DNA of 64,000 bases from Desulfonatronovibrio hydrogenovorans DSM 9292 (GTDB taxonomy: Bacteria > Desulfobacterota > Desulfovibrionia > Desulfovibrionales > Desulfonatronovibrionaceae), in the NCBI RefSeq assembly GCF_000686525.1, contig NZ_JMKT01000009.1:1-64000 (forward strand), in the 5' to 3' direction. Within the stretch, counting starts at the first letter, position 1. The number at the start of each line of letters is the position of its first letter. This document shows, piece after piece, positions 37,833 through 44,841 of the stretch. The notes under the pieces are model-generated. The model was not told the origin of the DNA, did no database searches, and was given only the letters and a program-made list of their open reading frames with translations. Both the position numbers and the translations under genes were made by a program.

Positions 37833-38675
37833 TTATGTTGACAGGGTGAATGTGGAACCGACCCGGCAGGAAAGGAAAGCAGAACAGAATTTTTGTCTGA
37901 TCATGGTTATAGCTCTGGTTCCGGTGCAGTGACCGGGGGCGATAATTTTTGGGGATATTTTTCTCAAAAGGCTTAAGGTCAGGTCCAGACGGGGCTGGTT
38001 TGCATTTAAGAGGTGAAGGCCCCCAACAACAGCTGCAATTTTCTGCCTTGAAGTGATTTTCTGGATGTAGGTCAGGGTGTTGATAATGCCTGAATGGGCA
38101 CACCCTGATACAACTATCAGACCGTCAGGCGCATTGATCCATAGTGCCTGGTCATCCCAGAGCGGATCTTCATTTTTGGCTTCTGGATCAGTATAGAATT
38201 CACCTCCGGTGTTCTCAAAGTGACAGATCCTGGGTATAGTTCCGGTGAGCCCAATTCCTGGAGCCAGCATGGTCGGTTTTGACACCCAGCATACCTGGAT
38301 ATCCGGAAGATCAGCCAGGCAGGCAAGGGTTTTTCTGGGCAAGCCTATTGACCTGACCTGTCCGTCCCTGTCCAGAGCGTACCTTGGGATTACTGCACCG
38401 GGATGAAGGTGGAGCACTGCTTTGCCAGCCTGTTCTGTTACCATGGGGATGCCTCCGCCGTGGTCGTAGTGTCCATGACTCAAGACCAGATGGCTGGTCT
38501 GGTCCAGATGGATACCCAGTTTGGCTGCATTACCGGCCAGAGCAAGACCCTGGCCGGTATCAAAGAGGATGTTAATGCCAAACGCTTTAATCCAGGCGGA
38601 AAATCCGTGCTCTGACTTCAGTCCGGGAGCTGCAGAGTTATCCACCAGAATGGTGATTCTGATTCTGTTGTCCAT
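37833..38675 (-). CDS. Metallo-beta-lactamase-fold hydrolase
   Basis: 280 aa. Contains the metal motif in HLVLSHGHYDHGGGIPM (HxHxDH), then a further His in VVSGCAHSGIINTL and the C-terminal HCTGTRAI. The fold and the EHGFSAWIKAFGINILFDTG opening match the group annotated as dihydropterin-ribofuranosylaminobenzene-phosphate synthase-like. The substrate is not defined. It begins where the CGGC gene ends, so they are co-transcribed. Confidence 0.85.
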   Translation of the reverse strand: MDNRIRITILVDNSAAPGLKSEHGFSAWIKAFGINILFDTGQGLALAGNAAKLGIHLDQTSHLVLSHGHYDHGGGIPMVTEQAGKAVLHLHPGAVIPRYALDRDGQVRSIGLPRKTLACLADLPDIQVCWVSKPTMLAPGIGLTGTIPRICHFENTGGEFYTDPEAKNEDPLWDDQALWINAPDGLIVVSGCAHSGIINTLTYIQKITSRQKIAAVVGGLHLLNANQPRLDLTLSLLRKISPKIIAPGHCTGTRAITMIRQKFCSAFLSCRVGSTFTLST

Positions 38676-39919: not shown

Positions 39920-40651
39920 TTACTCCAGTCTGGCAATGGCCAGACACAGGTTATCTCTGCTGTTATTTTTAATGGCCTGTTTGAGCAGTATGTCAGCAGT
40001 TTCGTCCAGGGCCCGGGTGGGTAAAAATGCAGAAACCATCTGACTGGCCTGGACATGGTCATGCAGGCCATCGGTAGTCAGGAGGATATGATCCCCAGGT
40101 GAGAGTTTGATCCTTCCAGTATCTGGTTTCAAATCCGGACAGCCCAGGCACTGGTCCAGAATGTTTTTCATGGGATGGGTCAATGCCTGGGCCGGGCTTA
40201 ATTCTCCGGTATTGATCAGTTCCTGGATAAATCTATGATCCTGAGTGATGGTTTCAAGAGAGCCTTTAACCCTCAACTGGTGGACCCTGGAGTCTCCCAC
40301 ATGAACCCATCCAGCTTCAAGGCCATCAACAGCCACAGCCGTCAGGGTTGTTCCCATGGGGTCACTGTCGGCCCGGGCAGTATTGAGGGCAGTAATCATC
40401 TCACCGGCCTTGCTTGCCACATCAGCCATCTGTCTCAGGTCTAAAGGAAACCTGGTTAGGTGTTTATTAATGAAATCCACAGCAGAAAATGCAGCCAGTT
40501 TTCCATTCTTTGAGCCGCCCACCCCGTCAGCCACTGCCAGGATGGCCCGGGTTGGGCTGATCATTTTGACCAGGAAAAAATCCTGATTTTCCTGTCGAAA
40601 ATTACCTTTGCAGCTCCTGGCATAAAGGCTGATTGATGAATACACTGGCAT
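39920..40651 (-). CDS. PP2C-family protein phosphatase
   Basis: 243 aa. Metal-binding motifs of the family appear in order: NQDFFLV, AVADGVGGSKNGKLAA, GTTLTAVAVDGLEAGWVHVGDSRVH and LLTTDGLHDHV. It removes phosphate from Ser/Thr residues in a Mn/Mg-dependent way. It starts 3 bp after the protein-kinase gene, so the two almost certainly counteract each other on the same targets. Confidence 0.93.
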   Translation of the reverse strand: MPVYSSISLYARSCKGNFRQENQDFFLVKMISPTRAILAVADGVGGSKNGKLAAFSAVDFINKHLTRFPLDLRQMADVASKAGEMITALNTARADSDPMGTTLTAVAVDGLEAGWVHVGDSRVHQLRVKGSLETITQDHRFIQELINTGELSPAQALTHPMKNILDQCLGCPDLKPDTGRIKLSPGDHILLTTDGLHDHVQASQMVSAFLPTRALDETADILLKQAIKNNSRDNLCLAIARLE

Positions 40652-40654
40652 TCC

Positions 40655-42409
40655 CTAAAAATCACTGAATTGGGTCATATGGATACTGATGCCCATCCCT
40701 GCTGCTTTTGACCCCAGTTCTCTGATGAGTTCATCCAGGGCGATTTTCTGTTCAGGAGAATGTGAGATCAGCAGGGATGTAACTGAACGAGGGGCGATTT
40801 TTTTGAAAGGCTGATCAGGGAGAGAGCAGGAAAGTTTCTGGAGCATTTTCCCGGCTTCTTCTGCACACTGGAAACGCAGGTCAGGATCTCGCCGGCAGCA
40901 TTTCAATATAAAATTGCGCAAATCGCATGGAATGTCCGGCATAAGGTTGCAGGGATCAGGAATATCGGCATGGCAATGCATGTCCATGAGTTTAGCTATG
41001 TCATCTTCAGGATAAGGTCTGGCACCGATGAGCATTTCATAGGCCATGATGCCCAGGGAATATAAATCAGACCTGTGGTCGACTGGAGATCCCTGGATCT
41101 GCTCTGGCGGTGAGTAGAATACAGTGCCTGCGATACTCATATCTTCTGTGCCTGAAGGGCAGGCCAGTCCGAAGTCAAGGATTTTGACCTGGTTGTTTTC
41201 CAGAAGAAAGATGTTTTCAGGTTTGATGTCCCGGTGGACGATACTGTAACTATGGGCACAGCTGAGGCCTTGGCATATCTGGAGGAGGATTTTGACACAC
41301 AGTTCCACTGGGAGCTGACCGATTTTCTTAAGGTATTCCCTCAAAGGCATTCCCTCAAGATACTCCATGATGATGAAGATGGTCCTGTATATTTCCTCAA
41401 TATCATAGACACAGACAACATTCTGATGCCTGATCCGGGCAATGGTTTCAGCTTCCTGCCTGAATATCTTCAGGAAATGAGGCTCCATGGCCAGATCATG
41501 CTTCATCATTTTTATGGCTGCCGGCATCTTGAGCAGCCTGTGCATTCCAAGATAAACAATACCCCAGCTTCCTTTGCCAATCCTTCTGGTCAAAATGTAT
41601 TTTCCGACGGTCCTGTCTCCGATGAACAGACTTGTGTCAAAGCGGTTAGCCATGACTTCAGTCAAAAACATTCTCAGGTCAGGATTGGTCAGAGCCAGGC
41701 CGTTGAACTGATCCTTTTCCAGCTTCCAGATGACCCCCTGGGTTTCAGCATCCACATTGGCTGTCCTGGGTTCACCGGTCAGGACAGACATTTCTCCGAC
41801 CACATCCCCAGGTCTAAGCCTGGCAATAACCTGAAAAGCCTCTTCCCTGGTTTCTACAAAAACCAGGAAACTGCCTTCCTGAATAAGATAGAGACAGTCT
41901 CCTGGTTCACCTCTGGTGATCAGTCTCTGGCCCGGGCTGACCCGGATCTTGACAAGGGCATTAAGCAGGGCACTCAGGCTGACCCGGGAAATGGATCTGA
42001 ACAGCTCGAGATTCATCAAAAAGAGCAGGTCAGAAGGTGAGGGGCTTTTGATTCCGGAAGGATAATCCTTCCTGGTTTTCTCTGGAGCCTTGCCTGTGAA
42101 CTGGACTCCCATGTGATGCTCTTCAGTTCCTTTGGCAGCTGTCCAGGCCACCCTGGCCTGGTGGTGGATCCAGCTGCTGCCAAGCTTTTCAGGTAATGAA
42201 ACAATGTGGTCTGTGCCTTGAGGCAGATGAAAAGGACATTGTAAAAGAGCCCCTCCAGGAGAATAGTTCAGCAGGTCAGCATAAAGGAGAAATAGATCAT
42301 CCCCGCACCGGTCCGTACTGGCCGGAAGGGTATTAGTCTGCACAACGCAGACCGGCCAGTCCGATGGATGGGTTCTGTCCCAGTTTCGCCGGTCATCAAA
42401 AGACGCCAT
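40655..42409 (-). CDS. PilZ - cyclic-nucleotide-binding - Ser/Thr protein kinase
   Basis: 584 aa, three domains. Residues about 5-108 are PilZ-like, with RxxxR (R8-R12) and N48-Y-S50-P-G-G53, the c-di-GMP contact pattern. Residues about 135-255 are a cyclic-nucleotide-binding domain (GDCLYLIQEGSFLVF, GDVVGEMSVLTGEPRTANV). Residues about 270-540 are a Hanks-type kinase: GKGSWGIVYLG, Lys300, HRDIKPEN (392-399), DFG (412-414). Both ligand domains lie before the kinase, suggesting second-messenger control of phosphorylation (inference). Partner phosphatase 3 bp downstream. Confidence 0.92.
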   Translation of the reverse strand: MASFDDRRNWDRTHPSDWPVCVVQTNTLPASTDRCGDDLFLLYADLLNYSPGGALLQCPFHLPQGTDHIVSLPEKLGSSWIHHQARVAWTAAKGTEEHHMGVQFTGKAPEKTRKDYPSGIKSPSPSDLLFLMNLELFRSISRVSLSALLNALVKIRVSPGQRLITRGEPGDCLYLIQEGSFLVFVETREEAFQVIARLRPGDVVGEMSVLTGEPRTANVDAETQGVIWKLEKDQFNGLALTNPDLRMFLTEVMANRFDTSLFIGDRTVGKYILTRRIGKGSWGIVYLGMHRLLKMPAAIKMMKHDLAMEPHFLKIFRQEAETIARIRHQNVVCVYDIEEIYRTIFIIMEYLEGMPLREYLKKIGQLPVELCVKILLQICQGLSCAHSYSIVHRDIKPENIFLLENNQVKILDFGLACPSGTEDMSIAGTVFYSPPEQIQGSPVDHRSDLYSLGIMAYEMLIGARPYPEDDIAKLMDMHCHADIPDPCNLMPDIPCDLRNFILKCCRRDPDLRFQCAEEAGKMLQKLSCSLPDQPFKKIAPRSVTSLLISHSPEQKIALDELIRELGSKAAGMGISIHMTQFSDF

Positions 42410-44058: not shown

Positions 44059-44143
44059 GGATAACGTCTAAGCTAAGCGGCGCGGCGTTAGCCGCGTCCG
44101 GTGGAGCGCGAAGCGCGGAACGAACTTGAGCGACTTGTTAGGC
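44059..44143 (-). other. Integron attC site (59-base element) of the AbiV cassette
   Basis: On the minus strand GCCTAAC (inverse core, 44143-44137) is followed by AAGTCGCTCAAG, an imperfect inner palindrome rich in CGCG, CGCCGCGCCGCTTAGCTTAGAC, and the core GTTATCC (44065-44059). The outer boxes, the spacing (85 bp) and the inner arms fit the attC pattern recombined by IntI as a folded bottom strand. The AbiV stop codon lies inside the inverse core, typical of gene cassettes. Confidence 0.85.
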
Positions 44144-44841
44144 TTCGTTTGATTTTGGCTGAGCATTGACAAATCTTTTGAACTTTTCCGAATCATCCAT
44201 CAGGCCGTTTGCGACCATATCCTCACCCCATTGCACAAGAGCTTTCTTCATCCAGCGCATGTCCCCTTTCCAAACAGGCCCAACGTGCTTTTTCCAAAGT
44301 TCAACCTCCAGCTCTGTAAACTGTCGAGAAGGTGAAAGCAGCTCCGCGGTTGATACAAGATACATTGCAAGGCTTTCGTCAATGACCTCCGCTGGAATAG
44401 ACCAGTGCGCTTCACCAAGGCAATCAGTATAGAATCCAATTTGTTTAATGCGATCCAGCAGTGCTGGGTGGTCTGATTTAGGGTCAACGACTTGGCGAAG
44501 CTCCTCCAAATTGGAAGCACCGGAAGCTGCAAGCTGCGGCAGAATCCAATGTGTGTTTTTGGACCGATGAGAGCGATACCGCTTCCAGGCGTCTTTGAGA
44601 TCCTCCTGATTGCGAGCGAGTGCGAGTTCTCGAAGAATAGAAACCTTCCCGGCCTCTTCAATTGCAAGAGCTGCGAGGGAGGCCCCGGAGGCAAGACCTC
44701 CTGAGTCCACTAGAATCCTAGCGTCATTGGCCAATCGGCGCGCATTCATTGCCGCCGCATTCATTCCAGCTACGATCCGGCTTGTCTCTAGTGGTCCCTT
44801 GTATTGCTTTAGGTCAGTAGACATATGTACCCAAGGCTAAC
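44065..44841 (-). mobile_element. Complete integron gene cassette carrying AbiV, without an integrase nearby
   Basis: The upstream boundary is GTTAGCC at 44841-44835, and the downstream boundary is the attC core GTT at 44065, giving a cassette of about 776 bp. Excision would rejoin ...ACATTG with TTATCC..., leaving a G|TT secondary-type site. No other attC and no intI gene is seen in the window, so it is either a stray cassette inserted at a secondary site or a leftover of a larger array. Confidence 0.75.
44138..44824 (-). CDS. AbiV-family abortive infection protein
   Basis: 228 aa. The N-terminal half matches the HEPN-like AbiV family: AMNARRLANDARILVDSGG, then SLAALAIEEAGKVSILREL. A HEPN-type R-x4-H motif is visible at R87-SKNT-H92, the pattern of metal-independent RNases. 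The C-terminal half carries helices ending WMKKALVQWGEDM. In Lactococcus AbiV stops phage by blocking translation late in infection. It lies in an integron cassette, a common carrier of defence genes, next to a large Mu-like prophage. Confidence 0.8.
   Translation of the reverse strand: MSTDLKQYKGPLETSRIVAGMNAAAMNARRLANDARILVDSGGLASGASLAALAIEEAGKVSILRELALARNQEDLKDAWKRYRSHRSKNTHWILPQLAASGASNLEELRQVVDPKSDHPALLDRIKQIGFYTDCLGEAHWSIPAEVIDESLAMYLVSTAELLSPSRQFTELEVELWKKHVGPVWKGDMRWMKKALVQWGEDMVANGLMDDSEKFKRFVNAQPKSNEA

Follow-up and report, generated by a model that had tools for sequence, protein, structure and literature searches.

The window, by which we mean the whole stretch of 64,000 nucleotides analysed here (contig NZ_JMKT01000009.1 of Desulfonatronovibrio hydrogenovorans DSM 9292), carries on its minus strand an open reading frame that starts with an ATG at 42409, with a ribosome-site-like GGAGG a short way ahead of it, ends with a stop codon at 40657–40655 and encodes a protein of 584 residues (Table 1). 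A preliminary description of this DNA had placed the gene at 40655–42409 without giving a strand, and the ends of the frame agree with these coordinates. It had also claimed a PP2C phosphatase 3 bp away, and such a frame indeed begins at 40651, 3 bp past the kinase stop. Promoter and terminator scans returned values barely above those of shuffled sequence (5 versus 3.6 and 7 versus 5.1, respectively). Upstream of the kinase gene and on its strand, the window encodes a HEPN_AbiV protein (44138–44824; 131.1 bits), by name of a phage-defence type.

Table 1. Positions of the kinase gene, its domains and motifs and the adjacent phosphatase gene in the window
Feature	Position	Strand	Evidence
PilZ-cNBD-Ser/Thr kinase gene	40655..42409	minus	ORF, 584 aa; three Pfam domains
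PilZ domain, residues 1–107	42089..42409	minus	Pfam 27.0 bits, match 39–106; separate AF2 model
RxxxR motif R8–R12 (R8-NWD-R12)	42374..42388	minus	both Arg in 20/20 alignable PilZ-type members
NxSxxG motif N48–G53 (NYSPGG)	42251..42268	minus	G53 20/20; full [DN]xSxxG 17/20
Cyclic-nucleotide-binding domain (cNBD), residues ~125–262	41624..42037	minus	Pfam 74.3 bits; best solved relatives PKG, PKA-R
Putative phosphate-binding cassette GEMSVLTGEPRTA, residues 205–217	41759..41797	minus	E206 21/21, R215 20/21 PilZ-type members
Hanks-type kinase domain, residues ~268–525	40835..41608	minus	Pfam 183.5 bits; PknB structural match
C-terminal tail, residues 541–584	40658..40789	minus	G573 in 37/37 members reaching it; helix 552–571 in model
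PP2C-type phosphatase, 243 aa	39920..40651	minus	Pfam PP2C_2 65.2 bits

Domain organisation of the kinase

PilZ, cNBD and Hanks-type kinase domains follow one another along the chain, ahead of a conserved C-terminal tail, and each scores above its own Pfam cut-off (PilZ, PF07238, 27.0 against 22.5 bits, E 5.8e-6; cNMP_binding, PF00027, 74.3 against 27.5 bits; Pkinase, 183.5 against 31.7 bits). The three domains are thus those that the preliminary description had read in a single chain; the RxxxR and NxSxxG motifs that it had named are present at R8–R12 and N48–G53, and the N-terminus passes the profile test for PilZ that had been set beforehand. A PilZ-family search of the source genome gave five other matches above the cut-off and missed the kinase gene at its first look, and when the PilZ region by itself was compared by sequence with solved structures, no match appeared up to an E-value of 10.

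An AlphaFold2 model of the whole protein, built from 15 sequences (those of the window and of related loci), reached a mean pLDDT of 82.3 and a pTM of 0.66 and contains a β-barrel (residues 20–107), a cNBD with its helices (125–259) and then the kinase. When this model was compared with the PDB by Foldseek, PKG occupied ranks 1–15 and PknB came next; the rmsd to PKG was ~20 Å across all domains, so the placement of the domains either differs from that in PKG or is not predicted. Because kinase and PKG chains filled the Foldseek and VIA lists for the whole model, the N-terminal 125 residues were modelled separately (AF2, pLDDT 83.4). Most of the top PDB rows for the PilZ-alone model were PilZ proteins (MotI, BcsA, Alg44, YcgR, PA0012, MrkH), several of them solved with c-di-GMP, with a modest best E-value of 1.0e-3 and a probability of 1.00. 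At the level of the predicted structure, a PilZ β-barrel fold is confirmed for the N-terminal region.

The best solved sequence relatives of the cNBD are PKG and PKA-R (E 6.5e-23). Its cassette GEMSVLTGEPRTA aligned over GERALLYDEPRTA of Plasmodium PKG, and E206 and R215, which we take to be the phosphate-binding Glu and Arg, align with the cassettes of both PKA and PKG.

The cNBD-kinase family and its N-terminal types

A scan of named genomes yielded 60 loci, 22 of which were read as family members; the remaining loci comprise a fragment (L039) and others that match in one domain. All 22 members come from MAGs, under names that include Desulfonatronovibrio, Desulfonatronum, Desulfovibrionaceae, Desulfarculaceae, Desulfobacteraceae, Desulfocapsaceae, Desulfofustis, Desulfomonile and Thermodesulfovibrionales, and one of these MAGs is labelled Nitrospira japonica. 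Matches over the full length, which begin within the first few positions of the profile and run through its last part, were found in at least 8 of the 297 class genomes and in at least 5 of the 395 phylum genomes, the source genome included in each case; these are lower bounds, since 3 or 4 candidates per genome were scored. The class count leaves aside 10 of 18 matching genomes (nine that matched in the kinase only, and G068, whose N-terminus is divergent), and the phylum count leaves aside 9 of 14; in all of these the match starts further along the profile.

For the family survey we kept sequences with a profile score above 480 bits, setting weaker kinases aside, and removed duplicates. The resulting 39 distinct cNBD-kinases comprise 21 members of PilZ type, seven with a two-CW domain, nine without an N-terminal domain, one divergent member (L084, which has no Pfam PilZ match) and one cut member (L109). 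These types were assigned by eye and checked with Pfam and with the NCBIfam two-CW model: all seven two-CW members scored above the NCBIfam cut-off, and of 20 members scanned for Pfam PilZ, among them 15 taken as PilZ-type, 14 gave a match (E up to 0.05, some below the cut-off). Hosts of the PilZ type are Desulfonatronovibrio, Desulfonatronum and other Desulfobacterota-type and Thermodesulfovibrionales MAGs. The search for other PilZ-cNMP-STK proteins proposed in the preliminary description has thus brought the number with this build to 21. That description had further called the three-part order unfamiliar, and in part this stands: no paper on the PilZ-cNBD-kinase order was found in the open-access library, to which the search was confined. 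Since the order is kept across many members, however, it marks a conserved family and not a one-off. The architecture is real and conserved; it has gained more support than the sequence alone could give the preliminary description, and as that of a family member it is less unusual than it first appeared.

A quick, unrooted tree spreads the PilZ-type members over several deep branches and gathers the two-CW members into one fully supported group. This pattern fits an ancestral PilZ form that would have undergone later losses and one replacement. The PilZ domain is dispensable in the wider family, as the nine members without an N-terminal domain attest.

Within the PilZ type, conservation was counted over the 20 alignable of the 21 members, at the 107 positions of the window protein. 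Identity to the window averages 24% in the PilZ region (range 16–35%, n=19), against 48% in the cNBD and 57% in the kinase, and only five of the 107 positions are invariant: R8, R12, G53, W80 and G101. Three of these fall among the five motif positions (hypergeometric 0.0005, a guide value since the sequences are related). In the cNBD, the single exception at R215 is L083, which has Gln at this position, and the nine members without an N-terminal domain keep both E206 and R215 (9/9 each), whereas the two-CW clade retains the cassette Glu in none of its seven members and the Arg in three. With the cassette near-invariant in PilZ members and decayed in the two-CW clade, the nucleotide site appears to have been kept by selection in the PilZ form and let go in the two-CW form. 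The residue that follows the cassette Arg was considered as a guide to cAMP versus cGMP and rejected: it is a PKG-like Thr in the window, but the position varies across the 21 PilZ-type members (T 7, S 7, N 3, A 2, L 2).

In the kinase domain, K300, E319, D394, N399 and D412-F-G are present in all 39 members; K300, D394 (of HxD), N399 and DFG are presumably the catalytic residues. At the position of the HRD Arg the family has R in 22 members, Q in 14 and L in three, so many members are non-RD kinases, which as a rule may need no activation-loop phosphorylation. The catalytic-loop Lys, K396, is replaced by Asn or Thr in all seven two-CW members. The C-terminal tail (~45 residues), kept family-wide, has no Pfam match; it is possibly a docking site or a regulator.

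Some sequences depart from the general build. In the two-CW sister clade (L035, L036 and L104–L108) the cysteine-rich two-CW domain takes the place of PilZ and the cNBD cassette is decayed. Genome G037 contains a remnant second copy at L012:4526-5232 (the same place in L039, which is labelled Desulfonatronum): a single frame passes from the cNBD and the start of the kinase to PP2C sequence, as would result from loss of most of the kinase. Finally, a Desulfonatronovibrio MAG (L004/L021, 276–2036) encodes a PilZ-cNBD-kinase whose cNBD is interrupted by an in-frame stop, either a broken gene or a sequencing error. This sequence was read as two frames: the C-terminal frame was used in the survey, the tree and the conservation counts, the PilZ type rests on the N-terminal frame, and no residue of it enters the PilZ counts.

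The phosphatase neighbour and the genomic setting

The PP2C of the window scores 167.8 bits with the NCBIfam Stp1 model, below the cut-off of 230, and its residues D24, D42, D120, D194 and D233 are invariant in the six aligned sequences, the window's included; such acidic residues presumably bind metal. A same-strand PP2C lies within 1.5 kb in 18 of the 39 family members (17 found by script, plus L106, whose PP2C frame overlap exceeded the script's limit), a lower bound because several contigs or fetched stretches stop near the gene. By type, these are 12 of the 21 PilZ members, five of the seven two-CW members and one of the nine without an N-terminal domain. With a neighbour in only 18 of 39, PP2C is a frequent but not a fixed partner of the kinase family.

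The source genome (2.94 Mb, 98.9% complete) has 17 GGDEF matches above the cut-off and one HAMP-linked class III cyclase, so that both kinds of cyclase are encoded. The nearest relative carries on the same strand, within 4 kb past its PP2C, a standalone PilZ gene together with a PAS-GGDEF-HD gene (L016:2367-4822), and in a PilZ-less member two class III cyclase-TPR genes lie directly 3' (L034:3918-7950). In a Nitrospira-labelled MAG, a gene for an AAA ATPase with a peptidoglycan-binding domain, which we take to resemble ExeA, comes directly after the PilZ-cNBD-kinase gene (L029:5968-7566; last coding base of the kinase, 5962). A metallo-beta-lactamase neighbour shared by two loci (window 37833–38675; L009 4123–4959) was considered as a kinase-linked cNMP phosphodiesterase and rejected, the similarity between the two proteins being confined to a short metal motif.

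Candidate mode of action and known systems

Conservation of the motifs across divergent relatives makes it likely that the PilZ-type kinase has two working ligand sites. We think it reasonably probable that a PknB-type Ser/Thr kinase is here placed under two ligand inputs in one chain, c-di-GMP through PilZ and cAMP or cGMP through the cNBD; most likely, this is a PKG-like bacterial kinase that would be gated by these messengers. The domain order, the intact ligand and catalytic motifs, their conservation and the presence of both kinds of cyclase in the genome are observed; we infer the identity of the ligands, the direction of regulation, the substrates and the partnership with the PP2C, and with them the kinase reading two second messengers and the phosphatase as off switch that the preliminary description had suggested. 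In such a scheme, c-di-GMP would be the ligand of PilZ, with the RxxxR tail closing over the barrel. Occupation of the cNBD by cAMP or cGMP would shift helix 245–259, which in the AlphaFold2 model reaches the kinase N-lobe almost straight after ~10 residues. In PKG, nucleotide binding moves the cNBD C-terminal helix that joins the kinase; in a similar manner, the sensors of the bacterial protein may hold the kinase in a basal state until movement of the cNBD helix releases or clamps it, and PilZ with c-di-GMP could act as a second condition that sets or vetoes the response of the cNBD. The kinase would phosphorylate itself and its substrates, and the adjacent PP2C would strip the phosphates and reset the output.

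Another arrangement, which we consider unlikely, has a single live sensor: the cNBD would gate the kinase and PilZ serve mainly in docking or localisation, or the reverse. The nine members that carry an intact cassette without any N-terminal domain indicate that the cNBD can work without PilZ, and the RxxxR of the window kinase sits at the extreme N-terminus, unlike that of YcgR, which is positioned between domains, so that a hinge mechanism is less obvious. Yet RxxxR and G53 have stayed invariant amid a PilZ identity of ~24%, and docking alone would not obviously need both Arg. More doubtful still is a kinase that responds to another ligand or to none, its cNBD sensing something else and its PilZ binding no nucleotide. 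Many CRP-fold domains bind no cNMP, CRP/FNR-type domains respond to other ligands, the PilZ of Myxococcus Pkn1 is predicted to bind no nucleotide, and the two-CW clade, having lost the cassette Glu in 7/7 and the Arg in 4/7, illustrates that the cNBD fold can outlive its site; the near-complete retention of both cassette residues in the PilZ-type members and the presence of both cyclase kinds in the source genome speak against it. It is highly improbable that the N-terminus is an unrelated β-domain called PilZ in error. Some relatives do score below the Pfam cut-off (L083, 14.4; L030, 16.5; L026, 17.1 bits) or have no match at all (L028 and L082), but the window passes it, L021 and L022 reach 35.5 and 32.2 bits, the separate fold model matches PilZ structures and the motifs are invariant.

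Replacement of PilZ by two-CW while the cNBD site decays makes the family core look like a kinase with exchangeable sensors. Whether the members form an undescribed, widespread PKG-like family in which c-di-GMP and cAMP or cGMP jointly control the kinase, so that one protein would serve as a logic gate for three signalling currencies, is in our judgement evenly balanced. In bacteria, c-di-GMP, cAMP/cGMP and Ser/Thr phosphorylation are mostly handled as separate, mutually influencing circuits; the PilZ-cNBD-kinase, which many sulfate reducers and related bacteria retain, may join two signalling systems directly. A single conserved kinase with both receptor sites, often near a likely phosphatase, would make direct integration testable on one protein and offers a bacterial case for comparison with PKG gating; if the reading holds, the family would be a tractable evolutionary parallel of PKG.

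The closest described systems are eukaryotic PKG and Myxococcus Pkn1. With PKG, the window protein shares the order of cNBD and then kinase in one chain; PKG, whose kinase domain belongs to the AGC group, has tandem cNBDs, whereas the window protein is bacterial, with a single cNMP_binding stretch, PilZ in front and a PknB-type kinase. The nearest folds to this kinase domain are PknB. The PknB/Stk1-type Hanks kinases have the kinase domain in common with it (VIA-align to PknB, Z 35.5, rmsd 1.5, 258 residues aligned; NCBIfam NF033483, 267.9 bits), but the NF033483 score lies below the cut-off of 450, the sensors precede the kinase rather than follow it, and PASTA is absent from the Pfam matches of the 584-residue protein. 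Myxococcus SpkA is reportedly a kinase paired with CbpB, a cNMP protein resembling the PKA regulatory subunit; those are two separate proteins, whereas here kinase and cNBD form one chain. Bd1971 of Bdellovibrio, described as a cAMP-sensing c-di-GMP phosphodiesterase in which the cNMP domain controls c-di-GMP breakdown (PMC6717892), likewise links cNMP to c-di-GMP signalling in a single chain, but the window kinase would read both messengers and its output would be phosphorylation. In the available text of a survey of planctomycetal kinases, cNBDs are listed among the associated domains and PilZ is not mentioned (PMC11032199), and the available text of two further papers holds nothing on a PilZ-cNBD-kinase build (PMC12943098, PMC11139211). 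Pkn1 of Myxococcus xanthus, which is needed for development, joins a Ser/Thr kinase and a PilZ domain in one chain, as the window protein does; in the available text of the two papers on it, this PilZ is described as C-terminal to the kinase and devoid of c-di-GMP motifs, and no cNMP domain is mentioned (PMC8316039, PMC8844925). Compared with this account of Pkn1, the window protein has its PilZ at the N-terminus with the motifs intact, and a cNBD between PilZ and kinase.
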